A stretch of 64,000 nucleotides of DNA from Coriobacteriia bacterium (lineage in GTDB: Bacteria > Actinomycetota > Coriobacteriia > Anaerosomatales > Anaerosomataceae), in assembly GCA_030651765.1 (NCBI GenBank), contig JAUSBY010000001.1, positions 124,001 through 188,000 of the forward strand, written 5' to 3'. A model generated the notes under the pieces. It was not told the DNA's origin, made no database searches, and saw only the letters and a list, made by a program, of their open reading frames with translations. The first letter of the stretch is position 1, and each line of letters starts with the position of its first letter. A program made the position numbers and the translations under genes. This document shows positions 53,961 through 62,840 of the stretch, one piece after another.

Positions 53961-54602
53961 TCAGACCCGCGCCACGCCCTCGCGACGCGAGAGGTAGTAC
54001 AACGTGTGTAGCAATTCATGGACCGGGTCGGTATTGTGCAGCGTCACTCCCTGCGGCACGCGGACGATGACCGGCGTGTAGTTGAGGATGATCCGGACGC
54101 CGCCATCGGCAAGACGATCGGTCACCTCTTGGGCCGCCGCAGGTGGCACGGCCACCACCCCGATACGGATGTCCTGGTCGCGGAGCACCCGCTCGAGATC
54201 GTCGATCGATTGGATCGTGACGTCCCCGATGCGGGTTCCGATGCGTCGTGGGTCGCTGTCGAAGATCGCCGTCACCAGGAAGCCGTGCTGACGCAGGCCG
54301 TTGTAGCCGGCGATCGCCGAACCGAGGTTCCCGGCCCCTACGAGCGCCAGCCGGTGCACGTGATCCGCACCCAGTATCCGCTGGATGCGATCGACCAGAG
54401 TGACCACGTCGTACCCGACGCCGCGCTTCCCGAAAGACCCGAAGTGCGTGAGGTCTCTACGGATCTGCGCCGGGTTGACCAGAGTCAGTTCGCCGAGGCA
54501 TGCCGACGAAACCGTCGCGATCCCATCGCGGCGCAGCTGGATCAAGATGTTCAGGTAGAGCGGTAGCCGCTCTATGACCCCTTCAGGAACGCGGTCGGAC
54601 AT
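53961..54602 (-). CDS. rex: Redox-sensing transcriptional repressor Rex
   Basis: A 213-aa repressor that senses the NADH/NAD+ ratio. N-terminal winged helix (about 1-80) with TVSSACLGELTLVNPAQIRRDLTHFGSFGKRGVGY, Rossmann NADH-binding motif GAGNLGSA at 89-96 and the C-terminal domain-swapped helix HELLHTLYYLS. It typically controls fermentation and anaerobic respiration genes. A candidate operator lies 38 bases upstream of the start. Confidence 0.96.
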   Translation of the reverse strand: MSDRVPEGVIERLPLYLNILIQLRRDGIATVSSACLGELTLVNPAQIRRDLTHFGSFGKRGVGYDVVTLVDRIQRILGADHVHRLALVGAGNLGSAIAGYNGLRQHGFLVTAIFDSDPRRIGTRIGDVTIQSIDDLERVLRDQDIRIGVVAVPPAAAQEVTDRLADGGVRIILNYTPVIVRVPQGVTLHNTDPVHELLHTLYYLSRREGVARV

Positions 54603-59592: not shown

Positions 59593-60270
59593 TCACACGA
59601 TCCGCTCGGCGACGACCCGCAAGAGAGAAGCGGCGGCGAGCTCTGCTGCGCTGAGTCCGACCGCGACGAGTATCTGAGGCCATGCGTCGCGCAGCCTGTG
59701 CGCCCGGCGCTCGAACACCGGCATGAGGCCGACGAATACCAGGTTCACCGTGACGAACGTGGCAACGATGGCCGCGGACACGAGCACGGGATAGCCCACA
59801 CCGAGTAGCGGCAGAAGCCAGCGCGTCACGACGAACGTGACGAGGAGGAGCGCCAGCCACGCGCCGATCGCAGCCCGGCCGGACGGCACCCGTTCAGGAC
59901 TCGAGCGCCTCCACAGTTGTCCGTTGACCATCGGGAGCGCCAGAGTCGCCAGACCCCAACCGGTCATCAGTCCTGTGATGAGGCGGATGTCGTTCGTCGT
60001 CGTCCGCAGGCCTGCATACGATGACACGCCGTCGAAGGCCATCGCGCCGACGAACAGTCCGATGATGAGCAGCACCGGCCAACTCGGGAGTTCGGAAGGC
60101 CTTCGGTCACGGGCGAGGAGGACAAGGACGATGAGTGCTGCGGCGAAGCCGATGTACAACCCGGTATCGCGAGCGCAGACCGGGAGCTGGAACCCTCCGG
60201 CGAACAAGGAGCGTTCCGGCAACTGGTGGCACAGTCCGTAACCCAGAACGGCGAACACTGACTCGAGCAT
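59593..60270 (-). CDS. DUF2085 family membrane protein
   Basis: A 225-aa polytopic membrane protein with about six helices. The N-terminal CHQLPERSLFAGGFQLPVCARDTGLY is the DUF2085 signature with conserved His, Cys and Arg residues that could bind a metal or ligand. Function is unknown. It follows tRNA-Pro by about 60 bases on the same strand. Confidence 0.88.
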   Translation of the reverse strand: MLESVFAVLGYGLCHQLPERSLFAGGFQLPVCARDTGLYIGFAAALIVLVLLARDRRPSELPSWPVLLIIGLFVGAMAFDGVSSYAGLRTTTNDIRLITGLMTGWGLATLALPMVNGQLWRRSSPERVPSGRAAIGAWLALLLVTFVVTRWLLPLLGVGYPVLVSAAIVATFVTVNLVFVGLMPVFERRAHRLRDAWPQILVAVGLSAAELAAASLLRVVAERIV

Positions 60271-60566: not shown

Positions 60567-62648
60567 CTACAGCCTCACGTGGCAGTAGGAGCAGAACGTC
60601 GGCTCGTGGCACTCGAAGCAGGGCTGAGCGCCGTCCTTCTTGACGATGCTCGGGTGATACGTGCGCCACGGCTGCTGCTGGACTGCACCCGGGTGATGGC
60701 ATGCGTCGCAGAAGAACTGGCTGTGGCAGTTGGTGCATACGTCCTTCGTATACGTCTTAGCCTCGAAGTCGGCCTTGTGCGCCTCGTCGAAGCCGGACGG
60801 GTGAGGCATCTCGAGCTTGTGACAGCTCTGGCAGAACTGCGCCTGCACGCCGCCGTCACCGTGGCAGTAGTCGCAGGAGTCCTGCGCTTCCTTGTACGCT
60901 ACCTGGTGCTTGGCGGGGGCGGAGAGCGCCGTGCGCCGCGTCCAATCGTTCGCTGTATGCGACGTTGGCAGGGCGTTCAGATTCATGTGGCAATCGACGC
61001 AGAACTGCTTGTTCTCATGACACTTCTCGAAGCAGGGCTGAGCGCCGCTCGCTGCCACGGTTGTCGGGTGCTGACGGGTCCACGCGACGTCGTTGCGTGC
61101 ACCCTCGTGGTGGCAGTCGGAGCAAAGCTCCTGCTGCTGGTGGCAGTTCGAGCACACAGCCGGCGTATTGCGGCCGGACACGTGGTTGGTCTTGAACGTG
61201 TCAGGGTGCGGGATCTCCATGCCGTGGCAGCTCTTGCAGAACTGCGCCTCGACGCCACCGGGGCCGTGACACACATCGCAGCTGTCGATCGACTGACGCG
61301 CGGAGAGCGCGTGTGCCGCGGAGGCAACTGCCGGAGTGTCCGGGTACTTCGTGACCGTGAGGTCCTTGTGCAGCCAGTCGGCGGCCTTGTGGGATGTGGG
61401 CAGCGGCTGCATGGTGGTGTGGCAGTCCACGCAGAACTGCTGATCGTGACATGCGCCGAGACACGGAGCGACGCCCTTGGCGACGACAGCCGCCGCATGC
61501 TGGGTCTGCCAGACGACCTGCGGATCGTACTCCCAGCCCACGCTCGAGCCATGGTGGCACGAGTCACAGAAGAACGTCTCCGACTGCTTGTGGCACATCT
61601 CGCACTTCTCGAGCTGGGTGGCTACGAGCTCGGGGTGCGACTTGGTCTTGAACTCATCGGGATGCGGTATCTCCATGCCGTGACAGTCCAAGCAGAACGT
61701 GGCCTTGACGTGGCATGTAGCGCAGTAGTCCACCTCCTGCACTTCCACGAGGTGCAGCGCGTGATCGTCCGCTGTGGGGACGTAGTCGTGCTCGCCGGGG
61801 CCCTCGGCCTCGGTCGTCTCCGAGCTGTCATATGGCTCACCGTGAGCGATCGGCCTGATGATGTCCTCAGCAGGTCGACCGGTCGCATGGTCCACTTCCA
61901 GCATGGCAAGGTCGGCGTGGCCGGCGGGATAGAAGCCCTCTGCGTCATGGTTGGCAGGCTTCAGATCGAAATCGGCCGGATGGCACGCGGAGCATGTGCC
62001 CGGAGCCGTGTACTCTTCGCCCGACGGAGACTCATCGGTGAGCGTGTGACACCGGAAGCACGCCGTCATCGACATGAAGTCGGCGTGGTAGGCGGCCCGC
62101 TCGCCGGTCACCGGGTTCTTGGTGAATATCTCGATGTCCGCCTCGGGGTGCGCCACACGGTTGTGGCAGGCCGTACAGTGAACGTGGTTCTCCGAGTGGA
62201 CCTCATGATCGATGATGATGCCCTTACTCGGCGTGACGGTCCGGGTGTCGAGGCTGTGACACTGCGTGCACTGGCCTTCGCCCATATGACCGTAGTTGAG
62301 CGCGAGATGGCTCGTCGCGTTGAGCGGCACCGCATACGTCGTGGTGACCAGCTCGTAGGCACCTGTCACGCCAGCCTTGACCTTATGGATCAGGAACGTG
62401 ACCGGGTCACCGTTGACTGGTAGGTGGCACGAGATACACGCCACCTTGTTGTGGGAGCCGTTGTCGTAGGCCGCGACAGCATCCTTCTGGACCGAGTGGC
62501 AGAAGCCGCCGCAGAACCAGTAACTCGACGTGGCACCCAGCGAAATCATTATGACCGCGGCCATAACGATGCATGCCACGGCTACCCAGATGAGGTACCT
62601 GGGCCTGCGGACCGGGTCTTTGAACCCGGCTAACGAGATCTTCGCCAT
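60567..62648 (-). CDS. Membrane-anchored 24-heme c-type cytochrome
   Basis: A 693-aa protein (695 if the first ATG is used; AGGAG is nine bases from the chosen one). One N-terminal membrane helix (about 19-42) is followed by an extracytoplasmic chain with 24 heme-binding motifs: 21 CX2CH and three CX3CH (at Cys48, Cys398 and Cys541, numbered from the outer Met). The first six resemble a NapC/NirT-type quinol-oxidising anchor region; then three repeats of six hemes follow (about 311-458, 459-593, 594-695), with shared EIPHP and CHH features. It probably passes electrons from the menaquinone pool to outside acceptors. It has its own promoter and a strong stem-loop. Confidence 0.95.
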   Translation of the reverse strand: MAKISLAGFKDPVRRPRYLIWVAVACIVMAAVIMISLGATSSYWFCGGFCHSVQKDAVAAYDNGSHNKVACISCHLPVNGDPVTFLIHKVKAGVTGAYELVTTTYAVPLNATSHLALNYGHMGEGQCTQCHSLDTRTVTPSKGIIIDHEVHSENHVHCTACHNRVAHPEADIEIFTKNPVTGERAAYHADFMSMTACFRCHTLTDESPSGEEYTAPGTCSACHPADFDLKPANHDAEGFYPAGHADLAMLEVDHATGRPAEDIIRPIAHGEPYDSSETTEAEGPGEHDYVPTADDHALHLVEVQEVDYCATCHVKATFCLDCHGMEIPHPDEFKTKSHPELVATQLEKCEMCHKQSETFFCDSCHHGSSVGWEYDPQVVWQTQHAAAVVAKGVAPCLGACHDQQFCVDCHTTMQPLPTSHKAADWLHKDLTVTKYPDTPAVASAAHALSARQSIDSCDVCHGPGGVEAQFCKSCHGMEIPHPDTFKTNHVSGRNTPAVCSNCHQQQELCSDCHHEGARNDVAWTRQHPTTVAASGAQPCFEKCHENKQFCVDCHMNLNALPTSHTANDWTRRTALSAPAKHQVAYKEAQDSCDYCHGDGGVQAQFCQSCHKLEMPHPSGFDEAHKADFEAKTYTKDVCTNCHSQFFCDACHHPGAVQQQPWRTYHPSIVKKDGAQPCFECHEPTFCSYCHVRL

Positions 62649-62727
62649 ACGCATTCTCTCCTCGCTCGCGTCCCTCGGCTTCTTCTAGCACAAGCGCGGA
62701 AACGGCCCCTCGCCGCCCCATCGCTCA

Positions 62728-62756
62728 ACGATAGCCGAAGCTTTGTGAAGGGACAA
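62728..62756 (-). promoter_or_regulatory. Promoter of the multiheme cytochrome gene with a Rex-like half-site
   Basis: TTGTCC (62751-62756) and TATCGT (62728-62733) on the minus strand with a 17-base spacer. The spacer begins CTTCACAAAG, and TTCACAA equals one half of the Rex operator consensus; the other half is poor. Redox control is possible but unproven. Confidence 0.55.
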
Positions 62757-62840
62757 GACAAACGCAGCCGTCGTGACGGGGTTCTCCCCTTGTTCGGGCT
62801 ATTCGCCGGGTGAGCCCGCATTCCTGCCCTCGCGTGACAC

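Follow-up and report, generated by a model that had tools for sequence, protein, structure and literature searches.

A 24-heme cytochrome with a NapC/NrfH-like head and three tandem six-heme modules in the Coriobacteriia order OPB41/Anaerosomatales

The window, a stretch of 64,000 nucleotides from a Coriobacteriia genome, carries a gene for a cytochrome with 24 heme motifs. As read from its sequence, the product has a membrane-anchored NapC/NrfH-like head, to which a six-heme module is joined three times over. It is probably a quinol dehydrogenase held in the membrane and fused to a covalent heme wire, which would feed carriers towards the cell surface. Tandem heme-module proteins and NapC-type heads are each already known; the joining of a NapC/NrfH head to tandem hexaheme modules in a core gene of this order is not described in the literature searched, which included few subscription journals. 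The exit of electrons from single-membrane bacteria is poorly understood, and the 24-heme gene is a candidate for its first step. The candidate covers an entire order of actinobacteria that are widespread in the subsurface, and two members of the order have been brought into pure culture. The gene and its parts are as follows.

60567..62654, minus strand: 24-heme cytochrome gene (695 aa; ATG at 62654, stop 60567-60569)
61755..62654, minus strand: NapC/NrfH-like head, residues 1-300 (PF03264, NrfH profile, PDB 2j7a, hydropathy)
62496..62513, minus strand: heme 1 CX3CH site (CGGFCH, residues 48-53), putative quinol heme, present in 38/38 orthologues and aligned with NrfH heme 1
61419..61724, minus strand: six-heme module 1 (M1), residues 311-412, CX3CH at Cys398
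60987..61280, minus strand: six-heme module 2 (M2), residues 459-556, CX3CH at Cys541
60579..60875, minus strand: six-heme module 3 (M3), residues 594-692, CX2CH throughout

The reading frame lies on the minus strand, which the first-pass annotation of this DNA had left unstated; the plus frame at 60567..62654 is interrupted by stops. That annotation had counted 24 heme motifs in the 695 residues, and the recount agrees: there are 21 CX2CH and three CX3CH motifs, the latter at Cys48 (CGGFCH), Cys398 (CLGACH) and Cys541 (CFEKCH). It had also divided the last 18 motifs into three six-heme repeats of one order (three CxxCH, CxxCHH, CX3CH or in the last repeat CX2CH, and CxxCH), which is confirmed, the CxxCHH at the fourth site included. 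Heme motifs account for 48 of the 49 Cys and occur once per 29 residues.

Among 69 genomes searched from the order (Coriobacteriia, OPB41/Anaerosomatales), 65 have a match and 41 the full-length protein, and by our own count full-length copies occur in 14 of the 16 family-level groups. Across 396 genomes sampled evenly from the phylum, full-length matches are confined to this order. Matches outside it are to the head, and in those inspected no more than one full module, or a variant of it, is present. Among named records the nearest are the actinobacterial MAGs UBA2272 (98%) and UBA6100, together with Coriobacteriaceae bacterium EMTCatB1. Conservation was assessed in an alignment of 38 orthologues, the others being 44-85% identical to the protein of the window; all 72 heme Cys/Cys/His residues are invariant.

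The head has one transmembrane segment by hydropathy (about residues 17-47), then hemes 1-6 at Cys48 (CX3CH), 73, 129, 160, 199 and 221, and a variable linker. PF03264 (NapC/NirT) matches residues 22-171 (E=3.5e-10; 40.3 bits against a cut-off of 24.1), and the layout of this family, one N-terminal membrane helix and then four heme motifs, is present. The NrfH profile recognises the head in 37 of the 38 orthologues, and the NrfH structure (PDB 2j7a) aligns by profile with residues 23-168 (E=3.7e-5). These three matches support the fusion to a NapC-like anchor that had been proposed at first pass. Hemes 1-4 of the head appear to be NrfH-like and hemes 5-6 to have been added. In the 2j7a alignment, the CX3CH of heme 1 stands opposite NrfH heme 1 and is one residue longer. 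The stretch aligned with the Met of NrfH reads H-x-V-Q in nearly all orthologues; NrfH has Ile-Met, and at heme 1 of two relatives from outside the order the motif is CX2CH and the next residues are Glu-Met. Lys91 is invariant and lies, in the same alignment, two columns from a NrfH Lys that we take to be part of the menaquinol pocket. No conserved distal His is assigned to heme 1, which may be the NrfH-type quinol heme of the protein. In the relatives L082 and L087 the motif is widened to CX4CH (CDAGICH and CAAGMCH), so that the spacing at heme 1 ranges from CX2CH to CX4CH within the superfamily.

How does the protein compare with known systems? With NapC/NirT/NrfH (PF03264, TIGR03153, 2j7a) it shares the single N-terminal membrane helix, four aligned heme motifs and a conserved Lys nearby. 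Unlike NrfH, it has CX3CH at heme 1 and Gln in the region of the NrfH Met (CHxM), and to the NapC/NrfH plan it adds two head hemes and 18 module hemes. Equivalence to NrfH was rejected, since TIGR03153 gives 43.6 bits against an equivalog cut-off of 134.2 and nrfA is absent beside the gene, where the neighbours are RidA, tRNA-Pro and DUF2085. ImcH, a Geobacter-type inner-membrane quinol oxidase of extracellular electron transfer (EET), resembles it in a CX3CH motif beside the membrane segment (PMC6295460), with CX2CH hemes after it, and in a partial likeness to NapC; one-helix homologues of ImcH have been reported from Intrasporangium and Anaerolinea. However, the heme number of ImcH homologues is 6-10 and most have three helices (PMC6295460), whereas here 24 motifs accompany one segment, and on both numbers the protein departs from the published description of ImcH. 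GSU1996 of Geobacter sulfurreducens is likewise a single polypeptide of tandem homologous heme modules with its hemes in line, 12 of them in four triheme domains (GSU2210 has 27 hemes; PMC10138318). It is periplasmic, and its triheme c7-type modules contain one His-Met heme each (PMC10138318), whereas the 24-heme protein has hexaheme modules, six conserved His per six hemes and a putative membrane quinol head. In Methanosarcina acetivorans, the cytochrome MmcA carries covalent heme at a CXXXCH motif, as established by LC-MS/MS (PMC11024163), but it is an OTR-related heptaheme archaeal protein with no tandem modules.

The three modules have nearly equal spacing between motifs (in residues, 10-30-12-35-10 in M1, 14-28-10-30-11 in M2 and 14-32-9-30-9 in M3). 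They are 41-51% identical (M1/M2 64/130, M1/M3 43/106, M2/M3 55/108), with a similarity 8.5-15.5 SD above shuffles in which the heme Cys and His were held in place. In a tree of 57 modules, including those of paralogues, M3 forms a single supported group (99/99), and a split supported at 98/97 places M1 and the paralogue modules apart from M2 and M3; M2 as one group is weakly supported (61/78). This topology implies that the triplication is older than the diversification sampled. A modular heme wire grown by duplication had been suggested from the first reading, along with a search for homologues with 6, 12 or 18 hemes. Module homology and the tree bear out the duplication; the search yielded relatives with 8 and 12 hemes, whose head and module borders are those of the 24-heme protein. 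The tree and the 8-, 12- and 24-heme relatives support growth of the tandem modules by duplication before the order diversified. The same relatives are a natural series for testing the growth of heme wires by whole modules. Searched by sequence, the PDB returned only NrfH, for the head, apart from a weak match of a module to a nine-heme cytochrome (E=0.0029), which was taken as composition-driven; DnaJ and double-zinc-ribbon matches to the modules fall below the cut-off and are explained by Cys pairs.

One of the 12-heme relatives is a paralogue that this genome itself encodes.

G000:C6:383367-384572 (L002 1312-2541), minus strand in L002: 12-heme paralogue with one six-heme module

It is identical to the 24-heme protein at 203 of 284 positions over the head and has CX3CH at heme 1. 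The first half of its module is nearest to M1 (34/66) and the second half to M3 (25/47). An in-register deletion joining M1 to M3 in a 24-heme ancestor may have given rise to the paralogue, a derivation only moderately supported because the halves compared are short. Variants of the arrangement occur elsewhere. In genome G018, a second, adjoining ORF with 16 hemes (L026 144-1265) holds most of three modules without a head near the start of the contig, and is due either to tandem duplication or to the assembly. In two genomes outside the order (L080 2021-2887; L081 1769-2302, incomplete), the headed protein is followed by a 10-heme protein that lacks a NapC head; its module is of the same kind. 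In G140, the two neighbours have nearly identical stretches in common.

Conservation of His outside the motifs bears on how the hemes are ligated. Of 34 such His, 23 are invariant, the next best being kept in 27 of 38 orthologues; among the other non-motif residues the figure is 47 of 589. The invariant set is thus one short of the heme count. Five lie in the head (68, 150, 153, 169 and 190). For each module there are two in the linker and four within: 236, 246 and 331, 340, 368, 386 for M1; 422, 448 and 483, 491, 516, 529 for M2; 566, 583 and 618, 626, 654, 667 for M3. The 12-heme relatives keep 11 distal-His positions, with His190 itself in only 5 of 11 and Lys or Tyr in the rest. The 8-heme relatives extend only as far as the second module heme and keep seven; in one of these sequences position 246 reads Asp, perhaps through a slip in the alignment. 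Since the His count is one below the heme count in the 24-, 12- and 8-heme proteins, the simplest reading would be bis-His ligation of hemes 2-24, among them those at CX3CH sites in the modules, with heme 1 as the exception. The pairing of given His with given hemes is suggested by their register. Together with the CX3CH pattern, the one-short count gives concrete predictions for mass spectrometry and structure.

The CX3CH spacing is retained at heme 1 in 38 of 38 orthologues, at heme 11 in 35 and at heme 17 in 37. The first-pass annotation had argued that these sites are unusual and that they are not sequencing noise. Their recurrence in 38 aligned orthologues bears out the latter; the sites are real but less unusual than claimed, given the precedents in ImcH and MmcA. 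In ImcH homologues CX3CH beside the membrane segment is the rule, and certain CymA homologues share it (PMC6295460). In the last module the corresponding site (module heme 5) is CX2CH in 35 of the 38 orthologues and CX3CH, CX6CH and CX10CH in one each, which points to module heme 5 as the site where spacing may vary. CX3CH at this position is found in 72 of 76 non-terminal modules and in 1 of 38 terminal ones; one of the 12-heme relatives also has it in a terminal module. It marks, as a correlation only, modules that are followed by another module. M1, M2 and M3 each look like one line of descent, so that few evolutionary events stand behind the pattern.

In the proposed mechanism, electrons would enter the head from menaquinol at heme 1, which has a CX3CH motif and lacks a conserved distal His. 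From there they would run along the bis-His hemes 2-24, by way of the three tandem modules, in the direction of the cell wall and surface, to be accepted by other multiheme cytochromes or soluble carriers. Heme occupancy, heme 1 as the quinol site, a linear wire, an outward direction and an extracellular acceptor are what we infer. The proposal is supported by the NapC/NrfH head, the invariant Lys91 and the parallel with the membrane-proximal CX3CH of ImcH, as well as by the 72 invariant heme residues, a distal His available to every heme from 2 to 24, and maturation genes. The last of these, a check recommended at first pass, are present in the genome as five PF01578 and two ResB matches, some of them near the 12-heme paralogue, so c-type maturation is available. 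In Geobacter, quinone oxidoreductases are the slowest-evolving EET cytochromes (PMC12977616), which fits a near-universal, syntenic gene and lends further support. Family resemblance and the Fe(III) reduction of relatives, Parvivirga hydrogeniphila among them, make a part in extracellular electron transfer plausible: relatives in culture reduce Fe(III), and they use Fe(III) or sulfur acceptors for growth on H2 or formate (PMC9686372). Among the isolates of the order, one is an obligate Fe(III) reducer and another does not reduce Fe(III); their multiheme cytochromes number 17 and 18 (PMC9686372). The latter strain, known here by its phenotype, and the housekeeping neighbours of the gene, with no cytochrome or reductase gene adjacent to it, count against the proposal.

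AlphaFold2 models of the whole protein (six sequences, mean pLDDT 35.5) and of one module (20 sequences, pLDDT 52.7) are too poor for heme spacing. The OmcS filament has six hemes per about 47 angstroms, which provides a rough estimate of length: 24 hemes would span less than 20 nm, enough for the inner wall zone and probably not for the whole wall. A search of the 24-heme protein for sequence evidence of cell-wall attachment or surface exposure found none. It is conceivable, though we advance it only tentatively, that a single-gene conduit from quinol to wall is an ancestral core trait of the whole order. One protein would oxidise menaquinol and lead the electrons by another 23 hemes through the inner zone of the wall, the CX3CH hemes would mark junctions (membrane entry and module joints), and the rule of n hemes to n-1 distal His would have held as modules came or went.

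Could the same head and hemes serve another end? NapC/NrfH-type proteins supply extracytoplasmic reductases, and the genome holds NrfA-like sequence (two pieces at contig ends, on other contigs). The protein might be a quinol-fed hub or capacitor under the cell wall, like NapC/NrfH/TorC or GSU1996, that stores charge or feeds such reductases (e.g. NrfA) or other cytochromes and forms no extracellular conduit. No surface partner is encoded nearby, and GSU1996 has been called a capacitor (PMC10138318). However, no reductase gene is linked to it in the neighbourhoods examined, and 24 hemes far exceed the need of NapC-type donors; we hold this role to be rather unlikely. The sequence also sets no direction, and the CymA and CbcL families have been argued to work both ways (PMC6295460), so a wire might instead bring electrons from a syntrophic partner, minerals or humics into the quinone pool. 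This is improbable, as ImcH homologues are reported only from Fe(III) reducers, which suggests quinol oxidation (PMC6295460), and the cultivated relatives, growing on H2 or formate, use acceptors that are Fe(III) or sulfur (PMC9686372).

The remaining alternative concerns the hemes themselves, namely that the CX3CH sites are structural or metal sites and the hemes number 21. Altered motif spacing may be selected against by maturation systems, and module site 5 is CX6CH or CX10CH in two orthologues. Nevertheless, Cys/Cys/His are invariant at the three sites throughout the 38 orthologues, the 23 invariant distal His match 24 hemes and not 21, and MmcA provides a case of heme bound at such a motif (PMC11024163). 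The CX3CH sites thus very probably bind heme, and heme-free sites seem highly improbable. An outward, quinol-fed wire of 24 hemes is the reading that we prefer.

The gene stands away from other cytochromes, among housekeeping genes. The conserved stretch, as seen in the window and the neighbourhoods examined from other families, comprises Rex, thioadenosine phosphorylase-like, DUF2085, RidA and chemoreceptor-like membrane proteins, not each of them in each genome. In this genome tRNA-Pro adjoins the 24-heme gene. The DUF2085 membrane protein (CHQLPERSF...CARDTG) is encoded downstream on the same strand at 59593-60270, and its gene lies beside the 24-heme gene in most neighbourhoods examined. 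Upstream is one candidate element.

62728..62761, minus strand: possible promoter region (TTGTCC-N17-TATCGT, TTCACAA in the spacer), weak and recognised by eye

The promoter scan did not report this candidate. Several members of family f1 have TTGTnTTGTCnCTTCACAA upstream of the 24-heme gene, with TTCACAA between TTGTCC and TATCGT; the site in the window is three mismatches from a palindrome. A Rex-like gene lies in the window at 53961-54602, and the element is possibly a Rex or CRP-type operator. Such control of the gene is not upheld, as the TTCACAA signal fades outside family f1, and it is kept as a lead only.

The 12-heme paralogue lies in a cluster of a different kind (L002 1312-2541, minus strand; L067 6984-18927). 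This includes a 15-heme doubled-CXXCH cytochrome, an 18-heme cytochrome of 1059 aa, NHL-repeat proteins, ResB and a cytochrome c assembly protein, and at its far end a protein with a likeness to Rex, as judged by eye.
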